Shown here: piece after piece, positions 21,527 through 51,320 of the stretch
Position numbering within the stretch: the first letter of the stretch is position 1
Layout: every line of letters begins with the position of its first letter
Assembly: GCF_019649055.1 (NCBI RefSeq)
Contig: NW_026570388.1
Span: 155,589 to 219,588, forward strand
Length of the DNA: 64,000 nucleotides
Source: Paramacrobiotus metropolitanus
Lineage: Eukaryota > Tardigrada > Eutardigrada > Parachela > Macrobiotidae
Direction of reading: 5' to 3'
Notes under the pieces: generated by a model
Told to the model about the DNA's origin: nothing
What the model saw: the letters and a program-made list of their open reading frames with translations, nothing else
Databases searched by the model: none
Translations under genes and position numbers: made by a program

Positions 21527-22770
21527 TCACCAGTTTGTGTTATTAATATCATGCAACGGTGCCGCTCCGTTTTTTGCTTGCACCGAATACAAAAACGTTT
21601 CCGCTAAGATGTACAATGTCTTCCCCGCCCAGGCAATATTGGCCACTGGTCCGGCGGACGGAATGACGATGGTGTCGATATACACTCCTCCCGGGGTGTA
21701 CACGCGGACTCCATTGCTGACGGTCACGTAAATGTTGCCCTTCTCGTCCACTTTGACCGTATCCGGCACACCGACGCCGGTGCCCGTGGAAATGGGATCC
21801 ATCTCGGTCAACACGGGAACACCCTTGCTGCCTTTGGACATGGCGAAGACGTGCATGACAATGGGAACGGTCGGGTCCGTTGAACCGTTGCCGATTTGGA
21901 ATCCTAGTCGTTGATAAAAATTGTCAATCCTACGTGCATGTGTGGCCCATTGTATCGGGGGCGCTTAAGAGAAATATTGACATGTATTGAAAAAGTCTTG
22001 TACCTGAGTTGGCGACATACAACCGAGATCCGTCGGCGGACGGCGAAAGCCCATTTGGCCGGTAGTTCGAGGGAAAAAACCAAATGCGTGTGACATTCAA
22101 ACTTCGTCTGTCGGCGAAATAAACAGCAGGCGGCATGGTGTTCTCGGGACGGAAGTTTTGATAGTATCCATATGGTGGATCGGTGAAAAAGTAGCCATCG
22201 TACTGGTCGCTTAAAACAACATCGTTTGGACTGCTAAAATCTGGGTTTGGATCTGCGGTCCCGAAAGGCCGCACAATTTGCAAAGGCTGCAAAGGGGGCA
22301 AAAAGGTAAGTTATATCCTACCTACCCATGAACAGCATGTCACTTACGATTTTTGTAGCCACGAGTGTTTCGATATTCAGCCTCATCAATGATCCCGGCG
22401 TCGAGTTATACCCTTGCGAACAATAGACAATTTCCTTCAGATTAATGCGTGCACCTCCATTAGCCATCAGAATCGGGGGATTGGTTGTCACTGTGACCGG
22501 CGTGGCATTGGGCGTGGTCACATTCAGTTTGGAAATGCGGATGTTCTGTCCACCGCTGCTGTCGGTAAAACGGTTGGACGAGAAGTAGAGCTCATTGGTC
22601 GTCTCCACAAACACCGGTCCTTCGTGGAATATCGCCTCGGTTGACTGTGATACTTGCTTAAATGTACTCATATCTACAATGTCCGATAAGGACATTGCCG
22701 TGTTTCCGGCATAGTTTTGCGCGACAGACAGGCTGACGTGCACCAGAAAGGTAAATATTTTCCAGAACAT
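21527..22770 (-). CDS. Secreted SMP-30/gluconolactonase-like beta-propeller
   Basis: Three exons: 22348-22770, 22004-22286 and 21527-21903. Both introns (61 and 100 bp) have GT/AG ends with matching phases 0 and 1. The product is 360 residues. It starts with a signal peptide (MFWKIFTFLVHVSLSVA). Family landmarks follow in order: FHEGPVF with the metal-ligand Glu, SPNDVV, DGYFFTDPPYG, YRPNGLS with the ligand Asn, DGSRLYVANSG, and VPDTVKVDEKGNIYV with the ligand Asp. Members are calcium- or zinc-dependent lactonases or esterases, so hydrolysis of a lactone or ester outside the cell is the likely role. The substrate is unknown. The start at 22770 puts the signal peptide at the N-terminus; an in-frame ATG at 22830 would precede it with hydrophilic residues. 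It heads duplication unit 1. Decayed copies lie at 31344 and 61870. Confidence 0.88.
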
Positions 22771-22896
22771 TGTCGCTGTTGGAAGGAGCAGAAAAGATGT
22801 ATCGTCGAGGCTTTGCTTGAATATGTACAACGTCTAGTTTTTGTGCATGACGGTATCAATATCAACGTCTAGTTAATGATATACTGGGTATATAAA

Positions 22897-25332
22897 CAGG
22901 TTTTTCAAGCTAACTTTGCAGAAGCTGATATTGCTGAAATATAATGCCGATCCTTGTTCAAAGCGTATTATTGAACGAACAAGGTGCGGTGTCGGTGTAC
23001 GCGAAAGGTTTTTGTCTGTAGAGTGCCATTTAAGCGATGGTCTGTTTCCACAAGCGGTGATTTATTTTCTTATTGTGGCATAAACGTCGATTTGATAACT
23101 CTATTTGTACTTGCACAACAGATTGCTACAACCGCATTATGCCATCATTGGGTTTGTAATAATTTGTTTGGTGTCGTAAAAGCACTTTAAGGTACGAGTA
23201 CATTATGCAGCCACCCAGTTTTTAAAACCCCCCGGTCAGACGCTGCTTCGGAAAACCGTTACAACAGTACGATTTGCCGAGAATCCAGTTGCTATCATGC
23301 TCTATTATCCGCTCTAACTGAAATACCCAGACCAAGTACGGTATTTACGTACCCAGACCAAGTAAGTACGAATGAAGATGTACGAGTATTTTGTCCCCTT
23401 TCAATCGATTTTCACAAAACATGATAAAACGAGAAAATCATTATTCACGAATTGCCATTTTAACCACCAAAAACACGTGTTTACTCTCTTCTATGCCTTC
23501 GATACTGCCAAGAACAGACACTACAATCATTCCTCTTTGAATTTCAGCACTTGATATAAAACCATCTAAATACCGATCTACAGTACAAGGAATACGTACA
23601 CAATAATAACATACGGGTAGACTTAAATTTTATTAAATTCACAGAATAAAAAGCAGCTTAATAAATCTATCACCTGAAACGTTCAGGTAAATGGACTACA
23701 TGTCTCTAATATGAAACATACGCAAAAGAAACCGGGAGTGGAATAATAAACAGGCCCATAACATAAATCACCTGATCTGTGTCCGACCTAACCTATCTTC
23801 AACTACCAAACGACATGCGGGCAATTGATCATCAGCTTTTAAATAGAATTAGCTAAGCTAATTCCGGTTAACGCAGCGGAGGCGATCGCAAGGCTGGACG
23901 ACTTGGTTGACCAGTGTTCAGCCAAGAAAACCCATTAGGGTGTGTCTTGGGATGCATATCCCGATGCTGTATAAGCAATGCAGTTTCGGTTGTGGATGTT
24001 TCATGTGTAGTGATTGTGCATTTCTGTTAGTGCATTTTCAGTTCCTGTTGTGTTGGAGTAAAGGTTGTTCTCGTGTAACAAGTTGTTCTTCCCTCCCGCC
24101 CACCCTCTTTGGAGAGGAGAGGGGGGGTTGTTTTAGCAAGGACGGCGGGGCCGGTTGCGCCGGTGTCCCGTGTTCCGGTGCTAGTGTCTTCACCCAATGC
24201 CCAAATAAAATTGAATCGTTACGCGCTGCTGTTGTTCCTACCGTACTAGACTGCGTTAAGAGCCCATTATTCACTATTGCAGTACTCCTATATATTGCTC
24301 TTACACGCCACGCGAGAACACCAAGGTCGGCTCGGAATTTACTTCCTTTGGGCAGTTATGCCGAACATGGCCGGAACCGGCCCCAAGCCATCACAAACAC
24401 AAAAAAACGAAGAAAAAAATTTTACGCAGCAAGTGACACATATTAGCGTTTAACATTTCCAAATTTATACCAATTCAAACACTCATACATAACTGTAACA
24501 GAGAGACCACTAGAAAGGGGGTGTGCCGTGTGTCGCAAGCAATACCCGGATTCCTGCGTCCCTCTGCATCCAATCCGTACAAGACTGCCGATTTTGCTGC
24601 TTGCCAGAAGACGTTTCTGTTTTTATGGTTTTTGCGTGACAAACAATCAAACACTAGATAAATCATAAATATCGAGAAACTTGACAGTAACGGTTTGTGT
24701 ACTTCGAAATCACGAGAGCAGTGTCACGTTTTTAATGCGAAAAACGAATAGAGATCGAGTATTCTCTTGAAAATCAACATTGTTTGCCATCCAGCAGGTG
24801 GTTTGTACTCTGAAAAACAATACTCCGATTACATTTTTAATCTCCGCTTTGACACTGACCTTACTGACTTGTCGAGCAAGTTCGTAAGGGGCACATGCCA
24901 GTATGACGAAGTCAGACGGATGTTTACAAACTGATTGAATTATTAGACAAATTTCAAAGGGAGACTGCACCCACAGTATGACATAGTTTAGCAGTGGTCG
25001 AGAAATTTAGTTACAGACGTAGTCTTGTGACGGAGCACGTCTACAGTAAAATGACCTTTGTAAAAGACAGAAGAGAGAACGGACCCTCGAATCGAATCTT
25101 TCACTTTGCAATATGACACCCAAAATAATATTTTGACAGCACATGTTACAGCTACTAACTGCAATCATAGAATGACTGCATAGGTTCCGTAACATTAGGT
25201 CGAAGAACGTTCGTATTTCCAAATTCCACGGTTTTCCGGCACAAAAGTTTTAAAGCTCCTCAAGCCGGAGCTTTTGTTTAGATTCATTTTATTAGCACGC
25301 GTACAACTCGGCAGTTTTCTATTACGTCATAT
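22897..25332. other. Intergenic upstream of lactonase and receptor E, partly duplicated elsewhere
   Basis: Segments near 22940-23220, 23640-23760 and 24780-25330 are recognisably repeated at 32940-33200, 33540-33660 and 33890-36390. A 179-aa Cys-containing plus ORF (23907-24446) has no recognised domain and overlaps a minus ORF at 24038-24274. It could be chance or an unrecognised repeat. I could not confirm a gene. Confidence 0.5.
24906..24945 (+). promoter_or_regulatory. Repeated upstream motif of the receptor E group
   Basis: The phrase CGAAGTC, then TGTTTACAAACTGATT and an AATTATTA tail, lies about 400 bp before receptor E. Related copies lie upstream of the E paralogs: 34077-34104, 34127-34172 and 35911-35952 before receptor H, and inverted at 42358-42411 and 42452-42478 before receptor I. 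TGTTTAC matches a forkhead-type core. A regulatory role is inference, since shared ancestry alone would also explain it. Confidence 0.4.
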
Positions 25333-26306
25333 ATGGCTTTTTTTAACAACACCACGGCTCAGAACGCCAGCCAGCCGGCCGCTGCACAACTGGGCTGGAC
25401 ACCGTTACTGCTGGCATCCACAACCATCTCCTGTGCGTCCTTCACCTGCAACGCCATCATGCTGCTTCTCCAGTTCCTACCGCAGACACTGGTCACATCT
25501 TTCACCATCTACCTCATCGCCATCTCCATCGGGAATATTTTATGGCTGGTCGGCGTGCGGCCGCTCGCTGTTTACAGCTCGATTACGGGCGTATGGCCTG
25601 GAGGTCACGGCGTGTGTGCAACGTACACGTATTTCCAGTTCGTTATCAGTCAAATACCCGTACTCATCCATGTCCTCATCTCTCTCAACCGTCTCTGGGC
25701 AGTCAGCTATCCCGCATCGTACCGGCAGTTCCATCATAAAAGATGGCAGTTCTACTTTGTCTAGCAACTGTGGCATACGTCCACGTCGTGCATTTTACCA
25801 TGTTTTTACTTGAGTTCTTTCACTACAGTCCAGCTGTTAAACCGAGTGGTTGCCAGCCGGGTGCCGGAGGGATACTCAACTGGCGACGGGTCGACATCAT
25901 CATCCATCGCATCATTCCTCTTTTTCTGGTTTTGGGTATCTATATCCATATAATCTTTAAACGCTGGATGAAGAAACACGAGCAACAGGCTGTAAATCCA
26001 GCGTCCAGCCAAAATGCTACAGCTAGTACCAAAGCTGCGGGAGAAGCCGGTGGTCTAGAAAGGTTAGCAGGGATCATGCAAGCAGGACGACGTCGTTCGC
26101 TAATCAAGCGGCGTCAAGTGAAGCCCTTCATTATCCTGACTGCTACGTCAATAACGGTTTTCATTTGCTGGGTCCCGTCGGATGTTTACTGGGCACTGAT
26201 TTATCTGAACTTTCGACTGCCCTATTGGGTATTTAATATAACATCGACGTTGTACTCTCTGCAAATGTTTTTTGACCCCATAATGTGGCTGATCAGTCTA
26301 CGATAA
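25333..26306 (+). pseudogene. Rhodopsin-like GPCR, NRLW subtype, one frameshift (receptor E)
   Basis: Two open halves together cover a full receptor of about 324 residues. The first (25333 to about 25740) carries NTT and NAS glycosylation sites, TM1-TM3 and LNRLWAV. The second opens at 25743 with ATGGCAG and runs from TM4 to the stop with CQPGAGGI, CWVPSDVYW and FDPIMWLISLR. The only lesion is in the second intracellular loop at 25738-25741, where four A's stand in place of the five in receptor G (CATCATAAAAAGATGG). Because everything else is intact, this may be a functional gene with an assembly error or a very recent pseudogene. Receptors H and I are its duplicates. Confidence 0.85.
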
Positions 26307-27593
26307 CAGTACCCCGTGCATTTTACTCGAAAAGATGTTTTATTGGGTTATTCAAATCAACGTTGGTTAAACACAAGATCACTTAAGCACTGGTTAAACG
26401 CCAGATCACGCAGTACAAGTATTTCTTTTCCGCATATAATACACTTCGTCCAAGACTCCAAACTCTTACCGCTACAGAACGTTTCGTGAACGCAAGCAGC
26501 ATTGCCTTGCATTAAAGCGACATTAAACATATTTATAGATTAGGTGCATTTTTTAAAGTTGAATAATGTATTGTCTTAATGATTTGTCAATTTCGAATAG
26601 CAAGAGTTTTTCTTGTGAAATAAATACAATAGATCACACGTTAATGGAGATTTTGTCCATGAAAACATGTTCTTGAAATGGGTCGATTTAAATGATCAAA
26701 GAGGTAGAACGCGCTATACGTTATGGACACCCTACCGGACTCTGACGGCATATCCGAAGTGATTTTGGTGTAACTTTGAATGTCATTTGCTGTTACCGCA
26801 TACGATAATTGGCATGCCGCAGTTTATGGTAATGCAAAATTTTCTAACATTGTCTGTGGGGTGCCAAGTACAGATATAACGCAACCATTTCAGGAATCAG
26901 CACCCCCAGACTTTCTATCTGGAACAATAATAGCGACACCGAATGTGTTTTGAGCATGCCGCTCTTAATTTGTGAAAGACTAATCATGTACGTAATTTAA
27001 TCGACTGCTCCTTCTGCCTTTGGTTCAGATCAATCGGGGATGAAATTCGTTAATCGTTAATAAGAACTAAAGATGCTGCTAACGTTCAAAGACATCGTGC
27101 AATCAAAAATGATCAAAAATCAGTGCTTAGAACCTAAGTAGGGTAAGTAATTAAACCGTAAGCGAAGTGGAAACAAGTTCTCGATCTCATATTGTAGTGG
27201 GCTACTGGGCTTAGTGGGCTAAATGGGCTACCTGCTCTGATTCGAATTAAATTAAAATTAAATTAAATTAAATTAGTAATGTCTAAACACGATGCTTCAA
27301 AATTTACGCGTATACGGCGTATTTAATTAATAAATTGCACACATTTCGAATTGCAATACAATGAATTATGCAAGCAAAAGCAGTTAAAAAGCCAATATCA
27401 CAATATCATGGGCGACACGCTTTTAAGGTGTGGCTAACAAAGCCTGGACCAACGTAATGCATCTTAATGTAAATTTACTGGCGCTTCGACCTAACCTTTA
27501 AACGCTTAATTTTTCGTTTTCGGCATTACCATAGGATAGTTTTGGGATAATCAGGGGCGCTGAAGAGAACTAAGTGGTATTACCCAAGCTCTT
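26307..27593. other. Intergenic between convergent receptors E and F
   Basis: Holds an (AAATT)n-like tract at about 27243-27280 and a run of GTGGGCTA/ATGGGCTA phrases at 27197-27233. No gene seen. Confidence 0.5.
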
Positions 27594-28559
27594 TTACTTC
27601 AGGCTTAAAAGCCACATAAGCGGGTCAAAAATTGTTTGCAGAGCCGTCAGAATAATGCTGAGGTTGAAGGCCCAGAAAGGCATTTGGATGCCGGCGTAGA
27701 GCATTGCCCAGTAGATATCGGCGGGAAGCCAGCAAACCAGCACGCTAAGCGTCGTCATCGTCAGGACCAGAAACGGTTTGACCTTTCTTTGCCGAGCATG
27801 CTTCCTTCTCAGTCGGCGCGACCTCACTCCCTCCATGGCACTTGCCTTCGTCTCGCTGCCACTAACTCCTTGGCTCGTTCCAGCGTTGCTATCATTATTA
27901 ACCGCCCGCCTGTTCTTCCAGCGCGTCACTGTCATGTAAATATAAATCCCGATCACCAGCAGCAGCGGAATAAACCGGTGCAGAACGATATCCGCGCGCC
28001 GCCACTCCAGAATGCCTCCCGCGCCGGGTTGGCAGTTGTTGTGTCGGCCGGGCGGACTGTAGTAGAAGAATTCCAGCAAGAAGAGGGGGAAGTGCACAAA
28101 ATGGACATAGGCTACCGTTCCTAGACACAGTAACGCCGCCGTCTTTTGGCTGTGGTGTCGCCGGTACGAGTGAGGATACTGGAAGGCCCATAGACGGTTC
28201 ACCGAGATGAGGACGTGCAGGAATACCGGGATCTGCGTGATGACAAACTGCACGTACACGTACAGGATACATACGGGTTGGCCGCCGGGCCAGGCGCCCC
28301 GGAGAGTGTTAATTACGGCGATGACCCGCATCACGGCCAAACCGGGAAGATTACTGATGCAGATGAAAATCAGGTAAATGGTGAAGGAGGTTAAGCGCAT
28401 TCGCGGTGACAGTTGTAGCAGCAGTATACCTATGTTTAGAATGACGGCGATGGCAGCAATGGCGGTCAAGAAGCCAAGTATGGGATTCCATCCGGGTCGG
28501 GTGCCGCCAGACTGCGTGGCATTAAACTGGCGAAATGTTGTGTTATTAGCGGCATCCAT
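27594..28559 (-). CDS. Rhodopsin-like GPCR, NRLW subtype (receptor F)
   Basis: An intact, intronless 321-residue receptor from MDAANNTT. An upstream in-frame ATG at 28679 would add 40 residues that look like untranslated sequence and displace the glycosylated N-terminus, so 28559 is preferred. NTT (6) and NAT (13) are glycosylation sites. C97 and C176 form the disulfide. TM3 ends VNRLWAF (120-126). The block EWRRADIVLHRFIPLLLVIGIYIY precedes a very basic third loop (RSRRLRRKHARQRKVKP). TM6 has CWLP (276-279), TM7 has FDPLMW (311-316), and the end is LLSLK. It is convergent with E and divergent from G. The same arrangement, with the F copy decayed, recurs at 42.8-47.5 kb. Decayed copies: 41815 and 44125. 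Confidence 0.92.
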   Translation of the reverse strand: MDAANNTTFRQFNATQSGGTRPGWNPILGFLTAIAAIAVILNIGILLLQLSPRMRLTSFTIYLIFICISNLPGLAVMRVIAVINTLRGAWPGGQPVCILYVYVQFVITQIPVFLHVLISVNRLWAFQYPHSYRRHHSQKTAALLCLGTVAYVHFVHFPLFLLEFFYYSPPGRHNNCQPGAGGILEWRRADIVLHRFIPLLLVIGIYIYMTVTRWKNRRAVNNDSNAGTSQGVSGSETKASAMEGVRSRRLRRKHARQRKVKPFLVLTMTTLSVLVCWLPADIYWAMLYAGIQMPFWAFNLSIILTALQTIFDPLMWLLSLK

Positions 28560-30041
28560 CAGAAACAGGTTTTTTTTAAAAATATTGATAAACAAATGGG
28601 AATGCACTGATATTCGTAGATGGATGGTGACAATCTCGAGCTCCAAATATAAAGTAACTGCCGTCTTTAGTAGAGACAAAAGGATCGCGGAAACTGATTA
28701 GTAATTTTTAATTGTGCTCAAATGAATTTCGATGTTTACATCAGACCCTGGATTCCGGAATAAGAGGATGTAATCCAAATGAATCATGAGAAAGGAAGTT
28801 AATTTCCTGTATGAATTAACAGAAATGATAACAGCCTACACATGACGCGCGCGTGGGATGTTATTTATGCTGCCGCTTGTCTACACAGAATCAATGAGAT
28901 TTGCGGTAATATTCCAGGCCAAATAACAAGACATTCAACGACGACTGCCATGCTATAATTATGACCTTTTTGATGCTTACGCAATAGCATATCAAAACAA
29001 TAGATGCAATCCGAAAACAAGAAAAAAACCAGCTGGTGATCGCTTTGTGCGGGAATCAAAGAAAACCGACCTTATGACGCACTACGCCGCCGATAAGAAA
29101 AGAAAGTAATCCGCTCACTTCTGCTCGTTTGCATAAGTCTTACGTATACGTAGATGTAGAGTGTAGAGATATCGCAATTGCAAGGCTAACCGCTTGGCGT
29201 ACGCAATCGATTTCCTGCTTATGCACTGGGATACGGTCAAGACTACAACGGAGGTATCTGTCTCCGCATTTGTCAGTTCATTTTTAACCAGCTCCTCCCA
29301 GCAAGAATTCTATTATGTGGTTATATCATTAATTGGATCGTTTAGTGGCAGTTGCCGGTGCCGACGTAAACAAGCCTATCGGAAAGGAGGTAAATCATAT
29401 TTCTTTTAAAAGCTGTCCAATATTCCGGCATATTTGAAAAAGGCAGCATTCAACGATACGATACCAGTATCCGGGACAACCGAGATTCTGTAAAGTAGCC
29501 GTAATTACGGCAGTCATGGCAAGCAAAAGTATGTAGCGGTTAAAGGTCATCCTGACGCTGTTCTTATTTTAAGCACTCGAACAGTGGCTGGCCAAACTAC
29601 TTTCGCGGACCACCTATTCCAGACATCCGATCCATCGTCTCCAGCACTCTTATAACAACAATCGTGCACGGTTTTTCGCTTCCTGGAAAAAGTGATAGTG
29701 GCGTAAGCGCTTGTATAATCAAGCTAATTAACGCGTTAACACAAGTTAGCAGCGTGCAAATCCGTACAACGAGCCTAATTTGCTCAGCTCATCCCTGAAT
29801 CAGCGGAATATAAGACGACGGTCATGTGATAGATGTGCTGGAATGCTGGCATCAATTTCCTGATTTCTAACGGCTAAATGTCATCGGATTTTGGAATACG
29901 GTAAGTGTATTTAACTGCATACCGCAGTATATGACAAGGTCATGATTCTATTGCAGATACATTCCGTAATATCGTCTACGTGGACGTTGACCTTTCATTA
30001 GAGTTCTCCTAATTCTCCTACAGTGAACCGGTAGCTGAATA
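28560..30041. other. Shared divergent promoter region of receptors F and G
   Basis: A 1.5-kb gap between divergent genes, with no gene seen. Long stretches are homologous to 44991-46496 between the paralogs J and K, for example GAGGATGTAATCC near 28770 and GGTTAAAGGTCATCCTGACG near 29540. The conservation comes at least partly from duplication. Confidence 0.6.
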
Positions 30042-31016
30042 ATGAATTCCACTAGCAACACTACAATTACCTTCAACACCACTCAGCCGGCAGCTGCACC
30101 ATCAGGCTGGACGCCCGTCCTGGTCATGATGGCCCTCATTGCTGGTATCTCATTTTCATTAAACGCCGTCATGCTCCTGCTACAGTTCCTCCCGCAAACC
30201 CGCATCACATCCTTCACCGTGTACTTGATTGCCATATCCATTGGAAATCTCGGCTATTTAGCCATCGTCCGGCCGATCGGGATTATGACCACCGCAACGG
30301 GAGCATTCCCCGGCGGTTTGGTATTATGTATGTTTTACATGTACGTGCAGTTTGTCATCTGTCAATTGCCGGTACTGGTGCACGCCCTCATCTCCATCAA
30401 CCGGTTCTGGGCGATCAGGTACCCCGTATCCTACCGGCATCGTCATCATAAAAAGATGGCCATTTCGTTGTGCGCCGGCGTGCTGCTGTACGTCCACGTG
30501 GTACAGTTTCCAATGCTCATGGTGGAATACTTAAGTATCAGTCCTATCAAGGAAGGTTGCCAGGTGACCAGCGCCTCGTGGATGCCCTGGCGCATCGCCG
30601 ATATCGTTCTGCATCGCTTCATACCACTGATTCTGGTCATTGGAATTTACATTTACATTATTGTCACGAAATGGAAAAAGAAGCGCGCTGTTGATCACCA
30701 CGAAATGAGCGCGGTCTCTACGCAGAACGACACGGTTTTCACGAAGGCGGATATTGTCGAGGATGATGATGAGAGGGCCACCGAAAAGAAATCCAAAGGG
30801 AAGAAGTCCCCAGGGAAGAAGCGGCAGGTTAAGCCGTTTATCGTACTAACGATGACCTCAGTTTCCGAGCTGCTGTGCTGGATTCCGGCGGATGTGTATT
30901 GGACGATGCTGTACGTGGGATTCCGCTTACCCGGCTGGGCCTACACAATAATCAGTACTTTATACAGTCTGCAAATGATTTTCGACCCTCTGATGTGGAT
31001 GATTAGTCTGAAATAA
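30042..31016 (+). CDS. Rhodopsin-like GPCR, NRFW subtype (receptor G)
   Basis: An intact, intronless receptor of 324 residues. Glycosylation sites are NST (2), NTT (6) and NTT (12). C96 and C173 form the disulfide. TM3 ends INRFWAI (119-125). The third loop carries an acidic patch (VEDDDE, 239-244) followed by a Lys-rich stretch (KKSKGKKSPGKKRQVKP). TM6 has CWIP (279-282) and TM7 FDPLMW (314-319), ending ISLK. One oddity is Glu276 inside TM6 (SVSELLCW) where the decayed copy K and other paralogs have a hydrophobic residue, explained by a GTG to GAG change. That buried charge could impair folding or alter activity. Confidence 0.92.
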   Translation: MNSTSNTTITFNTTQPAAAPSGWTPVLVMMALIAGISFSLNAVMLLLQFLPQTRITSFTVYLIAISIGNLGYLAIVRPIGIMTTATGAFPGGLVLCMFYMYVQFVICQLPVLVHALISINRFWAIRYPVSYRHRHHKKMAISLCAGVLLYVHVVQFPMLMVEYLSISPIKEGCQVTSASWMPWRIADIVLHRFIPLILVIGIYIYIIVTKWKKKRAVDHHEMSAVSTQNDTVFTKADIVEDDDERATEKKSKGKKSPGKKRQVKPFIVLTMTSVSELLCWIPADVYWTMLYVGFRLPGWAYTIISTLYSLQMIFDPLMWMISLK

Positions 31017-31343
31017 CCGAGTAGTGCTACATACTGTATTATAATTTATAAGTACCTAGTTCGTAAATTTGCTGATCGAGTATTGCTGTCTACTTTTGGC
31101 TGGCGAACCATCAGAATCTTAGTGGCTAATGGTGGCTCTTTCAGCTGCGCACACAATAATATATAATTACGGGTCGTTAATAATGCGTTCCTTTAGGTTT
31201 CTCGCGGATCTTTCCGTAACACCTGTGTCGTTTGAGGCACCTCACATACAGTACATGGAAAATTTTTTGTACTTGATAGCGTGAATAAAAATGTTCGTTT
31301 GTATCATATTCTCATTCGATTTGAAACAATAATAGTCGTTTAC
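31017..31343. other. Intergenic at the boundary of duplication units 1 and 2
   Basis: No gene seen. The lactonase pseudogene that starts unit 2 lacks its third exon, so the unit junction probably lies here or just beyond. Confidence 0.4.
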
Positions 31344-31980
31344 CTGAATTAGCGATCGTACAACTGAGATTCATCCGCGGAAGGCGAAAGTCCCTTCGGT
31401 CGGTAGTTAGGAAGAAACTCCTAAATGAGTGTGACATTCAGACTTCTTCTGTCAGCGAAATAGACAAAAGGTGGCAATGTGTTTTAGGTCGAAAGCTTTG
31501 GTAGTAACCATAAGGCGGATCAGTGAAAAAGTAGCTGTCTGTTGGCCGCTTAACAGAATATCGTCTGGACTGCTAAAATCGAGGTTTGGCTGCAACTGCT
31601 GCAAGAACGATAAATAAAATTGTCAGGCTGACGTTGTTACGTACGAGTTACGACAACGCTTAACGGTTTCGGGCACCATTTTTGCAGCCACGGGTGTTTC
31701 CATATCCAGTCTCATCAGTGACCCCGGTGCGTGTCGCGTTAAGCCCTTGCGAACAGTAGACAATCCCTTTAAGGTTAGTGCGGGCGCTTCCATTAAAAAT
31801 TGAAATCGAGGGACTGGTTGATACCATCACAGGCGCTGTACTGGGCGTGGCCACATTTAATTTGGAAATTCGGCATTCAATTTGTCCACCATTGCTGTTG
31901 GTAAACCGGTTGGACGAAACGCACAGCTCATAGAGAGTCTCAACAAACATCGGTCCTTCACAAATATCGCCTCAGTTGAC
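31344..31980 (-). pseudogene. Decayed SMP-30-like lactonase, exons 1-2 only
   Basis: Minus-strand copy of the gene at 21527-22770. The exon 1 part (31690-31975) still reads VETLYEL, SSNRF, GGQ, RISKLNVATP and VYCSQG. The exon 2 part (31344-31600) aligns at DNA level from the lactonase exon up to the donor region but its frame is broken. Exon 3 is absent and the signal peptide is not visible. EGP, the metal-ligand segment, is lost to an indel. It occupies the place in unit 2 that the intact lactonase holds in unit 1. Confidence 0.85.
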
Positions 31981-37187: not shown

Positions 37188-37196
37188 AATGTTTAC
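37188..37196 (+). repeat. Target-site duplication, left copy (AATGTTTAC)
   Basis: An exact 9-bp match to 40424-40432. It falls in the receptor's conserved NVYW codons, so the pre-insertion sequence is clear from paralogs, and removing one copy plus the element restores the alignment. Confidence 0.88.
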
Positions 37197-40100
37197 AACT
37201 TCTAATTGTCACAAGTAAAATACAGCAGTAGAACGCCAAGCTGCTTATTTTATATCTTCCTCGTTGGAAATATTTCCCCTTCTGTGGATTAACTTGCAAG
37301 TGACTAAATTTCCCAGTTCACCAAATCGGGGATCGATCCCTCTTGGTTGAAAGGGTGGCCAGGAGGATCTAAACGTGGTGCGGATTCTCACTGGCGAGAC
37401 CGTGCCTCATTACGGGTCCGGCGGGCCTGATCCTCCTAGGTATCCAGCGTCCATACAATCACTCCAGGTCAGTCGCTTTCCTTTAGATCCTTGATTCCTC
37501 ATGGCCGCCGACAAGGAACCTTGCCCCTTTTGTCAGAAATTGTATTGTAGGGGAGCTGGCCTTGCAAGCCACATGCGTGCCTGCAAATCACGACCAACTG
37601 GATCTGCTCCTCCGCCATGGGTAACAACTCTAACGGAGCTGCGCTACGCCGCCTGCACCGCCCAAAGCAGCTCCAGATTTTCGTCCCACCAAAGAGAGAA
37701 TCATGCGGCGTATCCCACACGGCGCAAGACCGACCGCCAGAGCTTCACTGCAGAGGACCCTTTTACGAGTGGCGAGCCAGAACGACAGCAGTTCCTGGCT
37801 AAAGTTGCTAGCGTTTGCCCCTAACGCTCTTCGGCTTCCTGCTAAAACGAAATCCGAGCGCGCTGTTTCCTTGGCAACAGCAGTGAAGAAAAATCTGGAT
37901 CTTTTCGACCGCGACATTGAGATCCCTGCTTCACCACCCCCGCCACCCCTGAACCCCAAGAAGAAGCGGAACAGTCAGGATGATCTCGTTCGTCAAGTCG
38001 GTCTCAAAATTGACGACGGATCTGTCTCTGGCGCAATGCGTGTTATTTCGTCTACGGATTCGGTCGCAGCTGTTAATGCGGATGTTCTCGATGAGCTCAG
38101 GACGAAACACCCTAAATGTACGCCCCCCATTATGGCTCCGCTCGACCCTGGATCTGCAGCGCCACCTATATCTGCCGCAGACGTTTTTGCAGCAATTCAC
38201 AGCTTCCCACGAGGTTCTGCCGCTGGGCCAGACGGTCTGCGGCCGCAACATCTTCTGGACATTGTAGGCCCAAATATGGATGTCCACAGCAGTCAATTCT
38301 GTGAAGCTCTGGCATCTGTGCTAAATATAGTTGTTAACGGGAAGATACCGTCCGATATCCGTCCGACCTTTTTTGGGGGAAAACTGATTGCCCTGCGCAA
38401 GAAAGACGGTGGCCTACGTCCCATTGCGGTTGGATTGACGCTGCGCCGTATAGTTGCAAAAATTGTGTGCACTAAAGTGGCCGACCGTGTAACCGCCACC
38501 CTCTGTCCACTGCAGCTAGGATTCAACATTCGTGGTGGATCAGAGGCCATTGTCCACGGAACCCGAAAATTCGCCGAGTCTGATCCTGAGACTGTAAAAG
38601 CTATTTTGAAGATAGATTTTAGGAATGCGTTTAACACAGTTTCAGAGAAGCCGTGCTGAACGCCGCTCATGCACATTTCCCGAATACAGTGCATTCCTAC
38701 AGTCAGCATACGGATATCATTCGTCTCTGTTCCTGGACCAGTATAATTTGTCATCTGAATCCGGTGTACAGCAGGGATATCCATTGGGACCATTACTATT
38801 TTGCCTAGTTCTGCACCTTTAGTGATCACTCTTACCACGGAGCTCAACGCATGGTTTTGGATGACGGGACGTTAGGCGGTTCTCCTGCTAGTGTGCTGGC
38901 CAACTTTGATCGGATTATTGCAGAGGCACACTCCATCGGGCTGGATGTCAACATTGCCAAGTGTGAATTATTTGTCTGCGGAGGGACAGAAAGCAACCAA
39001 CAGCATGTGACTGCTGAGTTTATTGTACGACACCCCAGCTGCGTGTTGTATCAAGCTCCACTTTGACGCTGCTCGGAGCCCCGTGTTGGATGACGCGATT
39101 GGGCCATCGCTCATTGAAAAAGCTGCAACACTGACAAGAATGTGCGAGCGACTTCAACTGTTTCCACGTCACCATGCGTTGTACCTTCTCAGGTTTTGTC
39201 TTGGCGCGCCAAAAGTCATATACATGTTACGATGTTGTAATGCGTGGAAGTATCCAGAGAAACTGTACGAGATAGATGAAAAGTTACGCTCCTGTTTCCA
39301 GACGCTGTGCAACGTAAGAACCGCTCATGATGACTACCCGTGTTGGCGACAGGCTAGCCTTCCCGTTTGCAGAGGCGGTATTGGGATACGTCGGTCGGAG
39401 GAATTAGCACTTCCAGCCTTTCTGGCTTCGATTTTCTCCGTATCCGATATGGTATCCTTATTACTACCTGGACATGCGGCCGTCGACCTCACAGGCGCTC
39501 TCGAGTTGTGGAAGAAAAACGCCCGACAACCTGAACTGCCTGAACCTAATTTCCGTAAGCAACAGAGGACCTGGGACATCCCAATGTGTAACATATCTTT
39601 GTCCACGCTGCTGAGATTTACCGCGACGACGAAATTAATAAAGCCCGCCTTCTTGCCCAGTCAACACCAGAAGCCGGCATCTGGTTAAATGCATTGCCTT
39701 CTGCCCATATTGGCAACCTCCTTGATGACGATACTCTGAAAATCTCCGTCGGTCTGAGACTTGGAGTTGCAATATGTGAACCCCACGAATGCATGAAGTG
39801 CCAAAAGCATGTAGACAAATACGGACACCATGGTCTGTCTTGCGCGTTCTCTGCTGGTAGACTCCCACGACATGGTAGATTAAACGACATCGTTTGTCGC
39901 GCGTGTGTTTCAGCTGGGATTCCGGCAAAACTGGAGCCACGTGGCACGTCGCATTCGTCTAAACGACGCCCTGACGGATGCACAACTTTTGCCTGGCAGA
40001 GAGGGTTGTGTTTAGCGTGGGATGTCACTTGCGTAGACACTGTTGCCCCTTCTCACATCAAGAAAACAGCAACTCACGCAAGTGCGGCTGCGGTGGAAGC

Positions 40101-40423
40101 AGAACAGAAGAAGTCTCAGTTGTACTCGTACTTAAACGGCAGATACATTTTTTCTCCAATTGCTTTCGAAACAATGGGCCCATGGGGACCGTCAGCCATT
40201 GCCATCATTAAAGAATTGGGCAAACGACTGGAGCAACACACAGGCGAAAGACGTTCCCATGAATTTCTACGTCAAAGACTGTCACTAGTGATACAACGAG
40301 GAAACGCTGCATCAGTTTTGGGAACGATGGAAGGAGCAGAAAAGTTAAATGAAATTTTCATGTTGTAAAATTGTGTTGTTTTAAGCTGTTGCATAACCGT
40401 TGTACCACAGGTAATAAATGACA
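37197..40423 (+). mobile_element. RLE-type non-LTR retrotransposon (R2/CRE-like grade)
   Basis: A 3.2-kb insertion with a 9-bp target duplication (AATGTTTAC at 37188-37196 and 40424-40432) inside the TM7-coding region of receptor H. The first 300 bp are untranslated. One ORF region follows (37501-40368), then about 55 bp of 3' UTR ending GGTAATAAATGAC without a long poly(A). A single ORF, N-terminal zinc finger, central RT and C-terminal restriction-like endonuclease mark the early-branching non-LTR group that includes R2, NeSL and CRE. The precise clade is not determinable here. It seems nearly full length, since sequence precedes the ORF. Confidence 0.9.
37501..40368 (+). pseudogene. Reverse transcriptase/endonuclease ORF of the non-LTR element
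   Basis: Domains in order: a C2HC zinc finger (CPFC...HMRAC, from about 37522); a linker; RT with AAGPDGLRPQHL, DGGLRPIAVG, motif A KIDFRNAFN, motif B GVQQGYPLGPLLF and motif C LDDG (codons 38857-38868); a CX2CX8HX4C zinc motif (about 39790-39842); and a restriction-like endonuclease with RPD...WD (about 39968-40030). The frame changes about five times (near 37700, 38640, 38825, 39025 and 39690), so it cannot encode the full protein as written. The catalytic residues remain. The C-terminal 50 residues match the truncated copy at 7811-8055. Confidence 0.88.
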
Positions 40424-40432
40424 AATGTTTAC
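40424..40432 (+). repeat. Target-site duplication, right copy (AATGTTTAC)
   Basis: Right-hand partner of 37188-37196. The receptor coding alignment resumes immediately after it. Confidence 0.88.
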
Positions 40433-40997
40433 TTTGGGTTGATTTATCTGGGCTTTCGCATACCATATTGGGTAACTAATTTTCAGGCAATAATGTACCA
40501 TCTGCAGATGCTTTTCGACCCTATGATATGGCTGGTCAGTCTACGATAAACGCCTCGTACTGTTTTTTGTATGCGAAATTGTAATTACACTGTATATTGT
40601 GCGACACGTGTATCGATCGGAAATGCTGATATAAAAAATTTCCTTTTTAGTGGAATAATTACAAATAACTATAAATTACGGGAGATGACAGGTTCTGTAC
40701 TCCTTGTCTTATTTAATTTACGGAAAAGCATGTTCAAATCTGCTTTCGGCTAAATGTTGTTCATACGTTTTGCGCACATTCTTCGATTCGAGTCACTGAG
40801 CAATCAGGTATTGTAAAAATGTGAAAAGCAGCGGTACGTGTTATGTTTCGCTTGTACATCGAGAACTGTTTAATATTATTATTTACATGTAGTATGAGAG
40901 CTTGCACAAGTACACAGATGCTCTTATTATTCTCATAAATACATATTATTACAATGGCACATGTACAGTTGTACTACATACCAAACAGTTCTCGACC

Positions 40998-41563
40998 TAG
41001 AGATGGCAACGGCTGGCTTAACGGCTTATCGGGTGGCTGTGGCTGGCTAAAATAGCGAGCCGGCTCGAAAGTGTCGGCTCACCTATCTGAGCCGGCTCAA
41101 ACGGCTCGGCTTTGAACGCGAGCCGGCTAAGCCGGCTCCGAGCCGGCTTAGCCGATAGTTTTTTAGCGCAGAAAAACGCAAGTATTTTTTCACTAAAAAG
41201 CAAGGTTTTCAGCTGTTTTTGGTTAAAAAAAATAACTGTTTTTCGTCAGTTTTTAATGGAAAAAGAGATCTCTGAAACGAAAATTCAGAGCTTTTTTATA
41301 AGACCATTGAGTCTTCAAGTCTCAAAATCGGCTTTGAACGGGCCAAAAAAGAGAAAATTTTATTTTCTTACACATTTTCCCCCTAATGTGCAAGCCGTTA
41401 GCCGACATCGGCTTACGGCTGGCTCGCGGCTGGCTGAGGCCCTGAGCCGGCTCAATCGGCTCGGCTTGCATCGGCTGCGGCTACAATTTTTGGTCGAGCC
41501 GGCCCAGCCGAAGCCGGCTTAGCCGCGGCTCAAACGGCTTCGGCTGAGCCGTTGCCATCTCTA
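40998..41563. mobile_element. Non-autonomous hAT-like DNA transposon, 566 bp
   Basis: Perfect 8-bp target duplication TCTCGACC at 40990-40997 and 41564-41571. Terminal inverted repeats of 17 bp read TAGAGATGGCAACGGCT and match the hAT consensus YARNG at the tip. Inside both ends are many copies of GAGCCGGCT and GGCTCGGCT. The core is AT-rich. The ORF at 41112-41522 is a by-product of the subterminal repeats, with no transposase similarity. It interrupts DNA downstream of receptor H that is otherwise homologous to that after receptor I. Confidence 0.88.
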
Positions 41564-41814
41564 TCTCGACCTATTGCATTGGCATTCAGCAACGGTGTAT
41601 TCGATATTTTGCAAAACAAACATGCAACGCGCAAGAAATCTAGCAGACAAATTTTTACACAGCATGCAACTTTAATTCGTTGACTGTTCCTTTAAGCCTT
41701 TTCCTTTTTTCGGTTTCAGTAGAATAATTCCGGAACAACTATTACCTAAGTCTGTCCAGCGTCCAGGAGCTAGATTTCTTAAGCCAAATTCAAGCTTAAA
41801 AATTATTTTAAGTC

Positions 41815-41993
41815 CTGTATTTCCAGCTTAAAATCACATAAACCGGTCAAAAACTGTTTGCATGGCTGTAAGAGGGATGCAAGTCCCAGAACGGCATTTG
41901 GATGCTAACGTGGAGTTTCACCCGGTAGACATCCGACCACCCTCTCACCTTACATGGTGGAGCTTCCTGAATATTTAGCCAGTAGATCTCGAT
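41815..41993 (-). pseudogene. Relic of a receptor F-like 3' end
   Basis: On the minus strand it aligns with the last about 60 codons of receptor F (QT(I/V)FD, then RFM in place of PLM, a stop at the Trp codon, and upstream traces of YWAML and MPFW). The upstream part is partially repeated (CGTGGAGTTTCACCCGGTAGACATCC at 41912, and a weaker copy at about 41955). This is the F member of duplication unit 2, now only a fragment, placed downstream of receptor H as F is downstream of E. Confidence 0.75.
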
Positions 41994-42763
41994 ATATCAG
42001 AATACGAAACCGAATGTTCCAGGTTTCCAGTTCTGCATAGTCGTTGTTATAACAATGATTTTATTGATTTTATATGACGCATTCGTTCTTGGAATCTACC
42101 GGTAATTAGATCTGTATCATTTCCTATCACAATATTTTGGGTGTCGTATTATACAGTGCAAGCTTCGATTCGAGAAACCAACTACTGTCTGTCTTCAGGA
42201 GATGCAGTCTTCCGATGGAATTGCCCTGTGACCAGACTGGATCTGTAAAGCAATACCTTTAACCATTTCCGAAGCATGCCATTTTGTGGGTGCAGTCTCC
42301 CTTAATAATTGGCTAACTAATTTAATTAGTTTGAAAGCATTATGCTGACTTCATCAAGCTTAATAATTTAAGCAGCCTAACAGTTTAATCATTTTGTAAA
42401 CATTATTGTGACTTCGCTTTTTTGCGGTGCTCATAATTTAATTAGCTTGATGATTTAATCGGTTTATAAACATCATTAAATTCTAGTGGAAATTCCGTAC
42501 GAAAAACTGGAAATTAGGGCTTTGCGCGTACAACAGGCAGGCGGCGCGTGATCGGCGCCATATGCGAAATCGAAGGTGTATGCCTCACCGGTTCGAGCTT
42601 CCGATAGCCCCGCTTCCACCCGACTGCCCCCGTTATTGCGTTGAGTAACAGAACAGCTGTGACAAAGTTTTTACGAAATTTATATTAGAGCTGCATGCAG
42701 GCGTGTAACGAACTACGACATAACCTTCCCAACTGAGCAATTCTATCGCAGCAGCTTAATATT
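41994..42763. other. Upstream region of receptor I with an inverted segment
   Basis: About 42010-42480 is the reverse complement of the region that precedes receptors E and H, including the upstream motifs and the phrase GGAGACTGCACCCACA (compare 24960 on the plus strand). The last 280 bp are in normal orientation. A GGTTCGAGC phrase at about 42590 resembles a pol III B box but no tRNA folds around it. Confidence 0.6.
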
Positions 42764-43681
42764 ATGACTTTCCTCAACAACACTACGGCGCAGAACGCCA
42801 ATCAGCCAGCCTCCGCACAACCCGGTTGGACTCCATTACTATTAGCATCAACCTTCATTTCCTGCGCATCCTTTATCTGCAATGCCATCATGTTATTTCT
42901 GCAGTTCCTCCCGAACACCCGGGTCACATCCTTTACCATTTACCTAATCGCCATCTCCCTGGGGAATGTTTTATGGTTAATCGTCGTGCGCCCGCTGGCT
43001 ATTTACAGCGCGGTCACGGGCGTGTGGCCCGGTGGTCATGCCGTGTGTGCCACGTATTCCTATTTCCAGTTTATTATCAGTCAGATACCCGTGTTCGTCC
43101 ATTTCCTCATATCCCCAACCGTCTGTGGGCGATAACCTATCCCGTATCATACCGGCAACGCCATCACACCGAGATGGCCGTTTTATTATGCCTGGCAGTG
43201 GTGGCATACGTCCACGGTCCGCAGTTTGCCAGGTTCATATTGGAATTCTTTTATTACAGTACTCCGGTTAAGCCAACTGGCTGCCAGCCCGGTGCCGGAG
43301 GGATACTGATTTGGCGACGCATCGTTGCCGTGCTCCACCGTGCCGTTCCTTGTATTCTGGTTTTAGCTGTTTATGTTCATATAATTTTCAAAAGGTGGCT
43401 GAAGAAACGCGAACGGCAGGCTTTCAATCCAGCCGGTGGATCAGAAAGGTCACCTGGGATGGTGCGGCATTCGGCAATTACGCGGCGACAAGTGAAGCCA
43501 TTCGTCATTCTTACTGCTACGACAATAACGGTTCTCATTACCTGGATTCCTGCGAATGTTTACTGGGGGTTGATTTATCTGAACTTTCGGTTGCCATATT
43601 GGGTGTTTTAATTTAACATCGACGATTTTCTCTCTGCAAATGCTTTTCGACCCTATAATATGGCTGGTCAGCCTACGATAA
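42764..43681 (+). pseudogene. Rhodopsin-like GPCR, frameshifted (receptor I)
   Basis: Paralog of receptors E and H, starting MTFLNNTT with glycosylation sites. TM1-TM3 are open to 43135, where the loop before NRLWAI has lost a base (LIS then PNRLWA in another frame). TM4-TM6 are open, with CQPGAGGI, KRRQVKP-like TRRQVKP, and LITWIPANVYW in which Cys of CWxP is Thr. At 43606-43609 a T has been added (GTGTTTTAA), creating a stop. After it, TM7 (SLQMLFDPIIWLVSLR) aligns to the stop at 43679-43681. Two frame lesions, both single-base. It heads duplication unit 3. Confidence 0.88.
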
Positions 43682-44124
43682 ACACCTCGTACTGTTTTTG
43701 TACTCGTAGCCGAAATTAAATTATAATATTGTCCTATACGAGTATCGATTGGAAATGGTGAAAATATTGATAAGAAATCTCCTTTCTGGTGAATCGACGG
43801 TGTCGATCTTTGATAAAGCTATCCCCAAAGCCTTTATCAGAATTCCGAAAACCTTGAAAATTCACCACAATCCGTTGTTTTCTAATTGAGCACTTCTATA
43901 GGTATACACTACATGAACAAACCAAACATGTTTCGATCTCTACCATTAGCATTCAACATCGATGTATTCCGTGGTTCACAATCAGCATTTTGCACAACAA
44001 AAACGCAATGCGCACATGAAATGTCGTATTGTTAAAGAAACAATAATTCCTGGAACAACTAGTCAAGGTGTCCATGAGTTAGATTTCGCAAGCCCAGATT
44101 TAAATTAAAGTTATTTCGGTTCTT
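43682..44124. other. Intergenic between receptors I and J
   Basis: Homologous in parts to the DNA after receptor H (for example CCTCGTACTGTTTTTGTA), but without the hAT-like insertion found there. No gene. Confidence 0.5.
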
Positions 44125-44990
44125 TTAAGCTTTTAAAAGCCACATGAGCGGGTCAAAAACTGTTTGCAAAGCTGTGAGAATGATGCCGACGTGAAAAAAC
44201 CAGACCGGCTTTTGGAAGACGGCGGACATCGGCGGGAAGCCAGCACATCAGCACGACATCGTCAGCACCAGAAACGGCCAGACCTTTCGTTGCCAGTCAC
44301 CTGCACGCTTCCTTTTGAATCGGCGTGGCCTCAGTCCTGCTACAAGGATTCCATTAGCCTCAGTACCACTACAGTCCGCTTTGTTTGTTCCAGCGTTGGT
44401 TTCGTCGCAGCCGCGCGCCTTTTCTTCCAGCGCGTTACTGTCATATACATATAAATTCCGATCACCAGCAACAGCGGAATAAACCGGTGCAGAACGATTG
44501 CCATGCGGGCTGTAGTAGAAGAAATCTTGGGAAAAAAAAGAAAACCGCACAAAATGGACGCAGGCCACAGTCCCCAGACACAGTAACGCCGCCGTCTTTT
44601 GTCCGTGATGTCGCCGGTACGATTGGAAGGCTCAAAGACGGCTCATCGAGATGAGGACGTGCAGGAACACTGGAATTTATTCAGCATGAACACAAATTGT
44701 CTGCAAATGTACCGGATGCAGACTGGTTGGCGGGCAGGCGCCATGCAGGGTGTTGACTCGCAACACGGCTAAACCGGGCAGGTTACTGTCTTACTGAAGC
44801 AGATAAAAATCCATTAAGTAGTGATGGATGTGGCAATAATTGCAGCAGCACCATACCGATATTTAAAAAAATACTTTTGTAACAGAAGCGATGGCGGTGG
44901 CGGTAACTTCCCAGTATGGGATTCCAGCCGCCGGGTCGGATAGTGCCGGGCTGGGTGGCATTGATGCATAATTACCAGCTTCTATCGTCA
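44125..44990 (-). pseudogene. Decayed receptor F paralog (receptor J)
   Basis: The minus strand aligns with receptor F over its length but needs many frame changes. Recognisable pieces include GWNP near the N-terminus, FFYYSP, IVLHRFIPLLLVIGIYMYMTVTRWKKRR, QRKVWPFLVLTM and DPLMWLLK. A deletion removes the ECL2 Cys and neighbours, fusing FFYY to HRFIP in one frame. The end has gained A's, changing LSLK to LKA. F member of duplication unit 3. Confidence 0.85.
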
Positions 44991-46496
44991 TTAAAGCGAT
45001 TCCAAAACCGAATGTCTAACAAATACATTAGGAAAATGTTGATAACCGAACTCGAAATCGTTGCGGTGCGCTGGTATTTGCAGATACATGGCGATATTCA
45101 CAAAATCTAATTTTCGCGCTTAGTCGATTAGCAGATGCAACCAATCACGTTAGAAACTGATCAGTCTTTTTTAATTGTGTCCTGAGAAATTTTGTTGTTT
45201 ACATCTGAGTGGAGCCGGAATTTCGGGATCTGAGGATGTAATCCGAATGGACGATAAGAAAGGTATAAATTTACTTCCTTTGTGAATTTCAATTAGCAGA
45301 AAAAAATATCAGCCTAAAGATGACGCACATGCCACAGCGTGTGATGTTAGGCTGCAGCTGTTGTCGAAATATTCCAGGCTTAACCACACTCCCTTTCGGC
45401 GCCAAATAATTAGACATTCAACGACAACTATCATGCTGTGTGACCTTCTCGACAACAGCAGGGGTTGCACCATGAACAGAAGAAAAAAACTAACTAGTGA
45501 TCACTTTGAGCGGAATTTGTGAAGAAAACTGGACTTATGACGCATGATGTTGCAGATATGAAGAGAGAATGATCCGGTCACTGCTGTTGAGTTGAAATAC
45601 ATAAATGTCTTACAAATAATTATACGTAGAGATTAAGCCTGTTCAGTTAGGCGTCAGCAAAATCAGTTTCCTGTTTATGCTCAAGACTATAAGTGAAATA
45701 CATGTCCCGCCTTCTCCCGTTCTTCGTTAAGCACGTCCTCCCCACAAGAGTTCAGTTTATGTGGTGTTTTGCCTACATTAATTTGCTCTTTCAGTTACAG
45801 ACTTGCAGTTACCGGTTATGACCTAAGCAGGCTAATCCGAAGAAGGTAAACCGTGCTTCTTTAAAAGCTGCCCTGTATACGTGCTCCGGCACATTCGAAA
45901 GCTCAGCATTCAGCGTTACGAAACCAGTATACGCGACATCTGAGATTTTGCAAGTTAATTACAACTATGACATGTAAAAGTGTAGTGGTTAAAGGTCATC
46001 CTGACGTTGTTGCTATTTCAGGCACTTTAAAAGTGGCTGGCATTACTGCTTTCGCGGACCACGTACCTATTCCATACATCCGATCCCTCGCCTTCACTAC
46101 TCTTGTAACAACTATCGTGCACCTTTTATCGCTTTCTGGAAAAAGTGACAGTGGCGTAAGCACTTGTGTAATCAAGCTTATTAACGTATAAATCCCGATT
46201 AACAGCGTTGAAATCCGTAAAACGAGGCTAATTTGATCAGCTCATCATTGCATCAGCGGAATATAAGACGACGACCATGTGATGGATGTGGTGGAATGCT
46301 GGCATCAATTTCCTGATTTCCTACGACTAAATGTCACCGGATTTTGGAACATGCCAAAAGTATTTAACGGCCTGCTGCAGGACATGTGAAGGTCAGGTAT
46401 TCCTTTTGCAAATACATTCTCGTAAAACCGTCTACATGGACGTTGACCTTTGATGCGAGTTCTCCAACTTTTCCATGGTGAACGGATCATTGAAAA
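44991..46496. other. Divergent intergenic region of receptors J and K
   Basis: Homologous to 28560-30041 between F and G over most of its length and of nearly equal size (about 1.5 kb each). No gene. Confidence 0.6.
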
Positions 46497-47465
46497 ATGA
46501 ATTCTTCATACAACACCACAATTATCTTCAACACCACCCAGCCCGCATCCTCACCACCGGGCTGGACTCCCGTCCTGATCATGATGGCCCTCATTGCTGG
46601 TATCTCCTTCTCACTAAACTCCGTAATGCTCCTGCTGCAGTTCCTCCCGCAAACCCGTATCACATCCTTCACCGTGTACCTGATTGCCATATGCATCGGG
46701 AATCTCGGTTATTTAGGCATCGTCCGACCGATCGGGATTATGACCTCGGCAGGAGTGTTCCCCGGTGGTTACGCATTATGTATGTTCTACATGTACGTGC
46801 AGTTTATCATCTGTCAAAGTCCCGGTACTGGTGCACGCTCATCTCCATCAACCGCTTTTGGGCGATCCGCTACCCGGTATCTTACCGGCATCGTCATCAT
46901 AAAAGATGTCCGTTCTGCTCTGCGCCAGCGTGTTCCTGTACGTCCACGGTGCAGTTTCCCATGTTCATGGTGGAATACTACATTATCAGTCCAATCAAGA
47001 AAGGTTGTCAGTTGACCGGGGCAGCGTGGATGCCCTGGCGCAACGCCGATATTGTTCTGCATCGCTTCATACCGCTGATTCTGGTCATCGGGATCTACAT
47101 CTACATTATTGTCAAGAAATGGAAAAAAGAAGCGCACTATTGATCACCACGAAATGAGTGTGGCTTCCACGCAGAATGGCACTGCGTTTACGAAGGCTGA
47201 TATTGTTGAAGACGATGATGAAAGAGCCGGCGCGAAGAAGCTTAAAGGGAAGAATTCCCGTGGGAATAAGCGGGCAGTTAAGCCTTTTGTCGTGTTAACG
47301 ATGACCTCGGTTTCCGTGCTGCTGTGCTGGATTCCGGCGGATGTATACTGGGCGATGCTGTACCTGGGATTCCGCTTGCCCGCCTGGGCATACACAATTG
47401 TCAGTACTTTATACAGTCTGCAAATGATTTTTGATCCTCTGATGTGGATGATTAGTCTGAAATAA
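46497..47465 (+). pseudogene. Rhodopsin-like GPCR, several frameshifts (receptor K)
   Basis: Very close paralog of receptor G. MNSSYNTT to ICQ is open with glycosylation sites. Then the frame shifts at the end of TM3 (one base gained near 46820, two lost near 46840), in the second loop (AAAA at 46901-46904 where G has five A's), near 46960 (one lost) and at 47123-47128 (six A's for five). From 47109 the last 118 codons are open with the acidic patch, RAVKPFVVLTMTSVSVLLCWIPADVYW and FDPLMWMISLK. Unlike receptor G, TM6 has Val instead of Glu before LLCW. G member of duplication unit 3. Confidence 0.9.
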
Positions 47466-51308: not shown

Positions 51309-51320
51309 TTCCGGCAGAAG

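Follow-up and report, generated by a model that had tools for sequence, protein, structure and literature searches.

Chemoreceptor genes are described as evolving by birth and death, in which tandem duplication makes genes that are in part kept and in part inactivated, with unequal crossover as a source of the tandem copies (in the part of PMC11526382 cited here). Tandem duplications also shuffle exons and create chimeric genes (in the lines of PMC5460883 cited here). In platyhelminths, the PROF1 family of intronless rhodopsin-like receptors has undergone a lineage-specific expansion, and its motif table gives a TM6 without W and F, G or I at the class A P of TM7 (in the sections of PMC3261222 used here).

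We analyzed a 64-kb window (the whole stretch of DNA studied) of the tardigrade Paramacrobiotus metropolitanus. Its content by itself points to a eukaryote, probably an invertebrate animal: intronless class A receptors, a spliced enzyme gene and reverse-transcriptase frames resembling those of retroelements. The array is like the chemoreceptor clusters of PMC11526382, as far as the cited part describes them, in having tandem receptor copies of which part are kept and part inactivated; it differs from them in that the repeat includes the gene of an unrelated enzyme, duplicated along with the receptors, and in that a sensory function is putative here. The receptors are also intronless, rhodopsin-like and expanded, as in PROF1, but keep CWxP and DPLMW, which sets them apart from that family by the motif table of PMC3261222. 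The enzyme matches the profile of the SMP-30/gluconolactonase/LRE group (PF08450, with 3e5z as an example), but is a distant member. What we found is birth-and-death evolution of the ordinary kind, fairly well resolved, in a cluster of class A GPCR genes. The initial annotation had read the locus as a tandem cluster of receptors undergoing birth and death, together with an unrelated enzyme gene that came along with them, and this is supported by alignments, tree, divergences, and profile and branch tests.

Receptor genes of the array

A DNA profile search placed 13 receptor loci, complete or nearly so, in the 64-kb window (Table 1), and with them relics such as the F relic, an inverted fragment at 18743-18944 and the C-terminal piece at the window end; three further matches, with E >0.1, were left out of use. 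In the corresponding protein profile the row of M is out of frame (28 stops, masked) and its matches were used cautiously, the DNA profile being unaffected. Five of the six receptors scanned, the single-exon F, G, C, D and M, match Pfam 7tm_1 with 65.9 to 78.4 bits (cut-off 30.5), and receptor A matched no Pfam family at E<=0.01. When the sequences of solved structures were searched with F, histamine H1 receptors came out on top (E=1e-11), followed by muscarinic, other aminergic and prostaglandin receptors.

Motifs were compared with the class A forms in the table of PMC3261222 used here, that is, (D/E)R(Y/H) in TM3, W.P in TM6 and (N/D)P..Y in TM7. The R of TM3 and C-W-x-P are invariant in all six aligned receptors; the TM3 motif reads NRL or NRF, with DRL in A, and the TM7 motif is DPLMW in five of the six rows, the row of M ending before it. 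C96 and C175 (numbering of F) are likewise invariant in 6/6, and we take them to be the usual cysteine pair between TM3 and the second loop. Judged by the profile matches, this is an array of single-exon class A (rhodopsin-type) GPCR genes, and it is the form of the array that suggests a sensory role. Scans of viral and genome contigs, from genome collections without animal genomes, confirmed no relatives of the receptors, and tRNA (bacterial settings) and Rfam scans of the window gave no matches.

Table 1. Positions of receptor loci, lactonase copies, spacers and repeats in the window
Feature	Position	Strand	Remarks
Receptor A	8941-9924	-	inverted sister pair with B, 79% identity
Receptor B	13592-14532	+	inverted sister pair with A
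Receptor D	17511-18500	+	open
Inverted relic of receptor C 5' part, perhaps with upstream DNA	18739-18944, 19731-19832		between D and lact1
lact1, SMP-30/gluconolactonase type	21527-22770	-	exons 22770-22348, 22286-22004, 21903-21527
Receptor E, class A GPCR	25333-26306	+	single exon; 1-base frameshift in A run near 25740
Receptor F	27594-28559	-	open
F-G spacer	28564-30039		homologue of J-K spacer
Receptor G	30042-31016	+	open
lactpsi2, lactonase pseudogene	31315-31990	-	exon 3 not found, exon 1 partly gone; frameshifts, 2 stops
Imperfect inverted repeat, fold-back-like insert	32093-32778		between lactpsi2 and H
Lactonase-H spacer	32905-36276		32905-33238, 33843-33967, 35905-36187 collinear with 22900-25181 of unit 1
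Receptor H pseudogene	36390-40549	+	two pieces, 36390-37196 and 40424-40549
LINE-like retroelement inside H	about 37197-40423	+	target site duplication (TSD) AATGTTTAC at 37188-37196 and 40424-40432
Short element	40999-41564		terminal inverted repeats; 8-base TSD CTCGACCT (by eye)
F relic	41818-41936	-	C-terminal part only
Inverted H-upstream copy, upstream of I	41970-42478		corresponds to 34072-34182 plus 35894-36276
Receptor I pseudogene	42764-43681	+	sister of H
Receptor J pseudogene	44133-44965	-	sister of F
J-K spacer	45018-46494		homologue of F-G spacer
Receptor K	46496-47465	+	sister of G; short indels only, matched codons stop-free
Decayed retroelement relative	47826-51341	-	directly after K; 2472-4547 matches 47826-49880, 54%
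Receptor L, old pseudogene	52660-53610	-	10-12 frameshifting indels by alignment
Receptor M	59701-60689	-	sister of D; one frameshift near C-terminus
lact4, third lactonase	62141-63438	+	nearest lact1; exon 3 present, many short indels
Receptor C-terminal fragment	63961-63996		runs off window end; 36 bases matched, E=4e-4
Retroelement reverse-transcriptase frame	3505-5922	-	RVT_1 E=4e-14

The lactonase genes

The spliced model of lact1 has three exons and is open over 360 residues, with a hydrophobic N-terminus of secreted type (by eye). It matches PF08450 over residues 50 to 334 (39.8 bits, cut-off 26.3, E=4.9e-10) and, weakly, the structure chain 3e5z_A, a putative gluconolactonase (E=4.4e-4). 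The predicted lactonase retains motifs typical of its family, HEGPVF, SSPNDVV, RPNGLSP and VPDTVKVD, which presumably hold the metal ligands. A scan able to detect close relatives only, run on bacterial and archaeal genomes, confirmed no relative of the enzyme.

The lactonase had been tied to a repeat unit at 21.5-47.5 kb, a limit that does not hold, as a third copy lies at 62-63 kb: the lactonase DNA profile hits three places in the window at E <1e-100, 21440-22770 (-), 31315-31990 (-) and 62141-63438 (+), the next best match having E=1.6. Exon 3 occurs at two places only, in lact1 and lact4 (next best match in the window profile search, E=1.3). The lactonase homology of lactpsi2 ends just inside intron 2, beside the junction of G and unit 2, and the start region of lact4 was not found. 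Ignoring relics and counting the short window-end fragment as a receptor, lact1, lactpsi2 and lact4 each have one receptor neighbor in tail-to-tail arrangement (D, G and the window-end fragment, respectively) and a second one in head-to-head arrangement (E, H and M). The DNA past the 3' ends of lact1 and lact4 shows a weak match between 20783-20914 and 63371-63495 (67%, E=3e-6), in an orientation inconsistent with the gene copies.

A collinear repeat with unequal gene content

The block lactonase-E-F-G (21.5-31.1 kb, unit 1) is repeated as lactpsi2-H-F relic-I-J-K (31.3-47.6 kb, units 2 and 3), with order, orientation and non-coding DNA in common. Self-alignment gave the diagonals in non-coding DNA that the initial annotation had predicted, the E-F spacer excepted. 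Between units 1 and 2, lact1 (21991-22654) aligns with lactpsi2 (31331-31990) at 73% identity, followed by the non-coding blocks 22900-23263 with 32905-33238 (E=4e-22) and 24749-24877 with 33843-33967 (E=3e-8), both of them matchless elsewhere in the window at E<=1e-3, by 24900-26189 with 35905-37196 and, beyond the insert, by the 3' end of H and then the F relic. E and I align over 25304-26352 and 42730-43730, and F, spacer and G (27590-31121) form a single unbroken diagonal with 44116-47569. The intergenic homology claimed for the F-G and J-K spacers was recovered over 1542 columns (E=3e-173). For the E-F spacer of unit 1, neither unit 2 nor unit 3 offers a detectable counterpart (116/200 and 182/200 shuffles score as well), so the collinearity is incomplete. 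In the receptor tree, the predicted groups E/(H,I), F/J and G/K were each recovered with support of 100/100.

The lactonase-H spacer seems to be interrupted at about 34183-35893, because its two flanks directly adjoin each other in the inverted copy upstream of I. Unit 1 likewise has an inverted counterpart there, 24900-25181 matching 42077-42360. We considered that the DNA block preceding E, H and I could be a mobile element and dropped the idea; it occupies matching places in units 1 and 2 and is therefore read as old upstream DNA, inverted at I. Another candidate, 42479-42664 as a missing part of the H-upstream block, was rejected for want of a match, as 96/200 mononucleotide shuffles scored as well in one orientation and 83/200 in the other.

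The proposal of three successive copies of one unit thus stands as to the repeat and fails as to equal gene content: searches recovered neither a G in unit 2 nor a lactonase in unit 3, and the copies are of two ages. Between the F relic and I (40650-42762), profile searches found nothing better than E=0.33 for the F-G spacer and G and zero matches to the 5' part of F, and the whole-window profile search found no lactonase near unit 3.

Divergence of the copies and duplication history

Synonymous divergence separates the copies into two groups (bootstrap intervals in parentheses). H-I has a dS of 0.32 (0.24-0.43), against 0.71 (0.54-0.92) for E-I, 0.82 (0.63-1.10) for E-H, 0.64 (0.48-0.85) for F-J and 0.78 (0.57-1.08) for lact1-lactpsi2, and it is below each of these four in 1000/1000 bootstraps. 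Since H and I are sisters, so much closer to each other than to E, the repeats come from two duplications of different ages. Non-coding DNA agrees in part: K80 is 0.27, 0.32 and 0.37 in three H-I blocks and 0.46, 0.55 and 0.72 in three unit 1-unit 2 spacer blocks, with some overlap of intervals, and short 3' flanks scatter from 0.76 to 1.14 (four blocks of 30 to 102 bases). From dS and this part of the non-coding K80, units 2 and 3 split after their split from unit 1, G-K and its spacer excepted. Between the F relic and J, for which the H-I age is expected if units 2 and 3 split late, K80 is 0.43 (0.33-0.56).

G-K has a dS of 0.40 (0.30-0.51); every bootstrap places it under E-I and 99.5% place it under F-J, and H-I is below G-K in 84.8%. 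The K80 of the whole F-G/J-K spacer, 0.33, is as low as that of the H-I non-coding DNA, and the spacer half adjoining G has 0.25 versus 0.44 for the half adjoining F. G and K are too similar for their neighborhood, and perhaps a gene conversion tract covers about 29.3-31.0 kb; strong constraint on the promoter and codons of G is an alternative explanation of their closeness. Compared with G, a single A is missing from the AAAAAG codon pair at corresponding places in both E (about 25740) and K (about 46905), and a hot spot, gene conversion or read error are possible causes.

We consider it probable that the locus records two nested tandem duplications whose genes were long under selection and then died singly. 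The block lactonase(-)-E(+)-F(-)-G(+) would have been copied in tandem, and later the E-type and F-type part of the second copy would have been copied again, giving H and the F relic, and I and J, with K at the end. Selection would then have held the genes for a good part of the time since duplication, until single genes died through frameshifts, through the LINE-like element that entered H, and through deletions that took lactonase exon 3 and the 5' end of the F relic. Gene conversion may have homogenized the G/K tract, and the lactonase would be a passenger in the duplicated DNA. One duplication of a four-gene block and a smaller E-F one inside the second copy is the least costly account; we infer unequal crossing-over or replication-based repair as the mechanism. 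Several points count against the nested history. By dS, G-K sits closer to H-I than to the first duplication, and the whole F-G spacer is as little diverged as the H-I non-coding DNA, both of which gene conversion would explain. The K80 of F relic-J is above the three H-I values, the E-F spacers of unit 1 and the other units do not align, the short 3' flanks scatter widely, late death has weak support for H, and the inverted upstream block of I calls for one extra event.

Decay and selection on the copies

Unit 1 had been described as almost intact and units 2 and 3 as dying. The former holds, with lact1, F and G open and E carrying one frameshift, but decay follows single genes and not whole units: lactpsi2 and J are far decayed and K barely, its branch dN being 0.03-0.04. 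The branch of lactpsi2 has a dN of 0.136 (0.093-0.179), a dS of 0.44 (0.28-0.71) and an omega of 0.31; omega is 0.32 for J, 0.44 for H and 0.32 for I. Branch dN stays under half of dS in 96% (lactpsi2), 84% (I), 79% (J) and 66% (H) of bootstraps. Outgroup dS is saturated in these tests, and the branch dS intervals include zero for K, F, A and B and, within the set built for the F relic, for that relic and J; we therefore rely just on dN and the branches of the lactonase, H and I. Given its low branch dN relative to dS, lactpsi2 was probably constrained for most of its history. The tests suggest that the dead copies were long under selection, with good support for lactpsi2 and weak support for H.

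Alternative explanations

The same gene content would be explained if tandem duplication had made three complete units, which then lost G of unit 2 and the lactonase of unit 3 in one deletion reaching from within F of unit 2 into the DNA upstream of I; a single deletion boundary could indeed sit between the end of the F relic (about 41941) and the start of the inverted block (about 41970). We think this unlikely, as it needs one more event, the interval searched between the F relic and I holds no trace of G, the F-G spacer, the 5' part of F or a lactonase, and the H-I age relative to E-H implies a later separation of units 2 and 3 under this version too. Truncation at duplication breakpoints in lactonase intron 2 and inside F, which would have left lactpsi2 and the F relic dead from birth, fits the end of the lactonase homology by the G/unit 2 junction and the abrupt end of the F relic. 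The branch test disfavors it for lactpsi2, whose dN of 0.136 compares with nearly 0.4 estimated for a gene neutral since the duplication; for the F relic, the comparison with both F and J covers 29 codons and favors neither reading. We regard death from birth as quite improbable.

A different kind of doubt, compatible with the nested history, is that part of the decay is an assembly artifact, run indels making intact genes look dead, chiefly E and K and perhaps lact4. Frame-changing indels of 1-2 bases in runs (two or more bases) make up 1/1 in E, 4/5 in K and 7/15 in lact4 (counted over exons and introns in the latter), so assembly error is possible in E and K, which are disabled only or mostly in this way. 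The missing A shared by E and K points in the same direction, as do the stop-free matched codons and low branch dN of K and lact4. Read errors are unlikely, however, to account for the stops, larger indels or insert in J, L, H and lactpsi2, and 8/15 of the indels in lact4 are long or outside runs. The intact set (A, C, D, F, G and lact1) was chosen for being open and says nothing on the error rate. Alleles or assembly duplicates do not come into question, since a dS of 0.3-0.8 between the copies is too high for either. We hold an artifactual share in the decay to be a tentative possibility, somewhat on the unlikely side. The nested history remains our preferred reading.

The wider array and mobile elements

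The limits first given for the array, 21527-47465, are too narrow: lact4, D/M, A/B and the receptor fragment at the window end lie beyond them. D and M are sisters in the tree with 82% identity, and about 600 bases of their upstream DNA are also homologous. The divergences of D-M (dS 0.56) and lact1-lact4 (0.50) are similar, so a lactonase copy may also have traveled with this other receptor branch. A single inverted duplication of D-lact1 into M-lact4 was rejected: the divergences agree, but the gene order does not fit one simple inversion. The head-to-head spacers of lact4-M and lact1-E do not match (48/200 shuffles as good), nor does the DNA downstream of D and M (137/200). The upstream DNA of A and B shows some similarity (0/200 shuffles as good), and none was detected in their downstream DNA (33/200). 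L sits on a long branch near C, D and M.

The LINE-like insert in H is flanked by a TSD of 9 bases (by eye), and its RVT_1 match (19.9 bits, E=6.7e-4) is under the cut-off of 29.6. We take the short element downstream of H to be hAT-like and the retroelement with the reverse-transcriptase frame to be of DIRS type. The fold-back-like insert is 686 bases long and matches its own reverse complement at 81%. At 450-728 there is a 12-base tandem repeat of 23 copies, the minus strand of which codes for a TPAA repeat in a frame of 189 residues from stop to stop; the start of this frame looks signal-like (by eye), and its C-terminal tail is free of the repeat.

Biological significance

It could be imagined that a secreted lactonase and the neighboring receptors are a working pair, the enzyme clearing or making a sensed lactone, kept together by selection through at least two duplications. 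We consider this highly improbable; if true, the link would make the repeat an enzyme-receptor sensing unit. As a worked example, one stretch of DNA lets us read in what order two probable nested tandem duplications took place, which parts were lost afterward and how one gene after another decayed. Tandem copying followed by decay is the usual evolutionary route of such receptor families, and it can be followed here in some detail.
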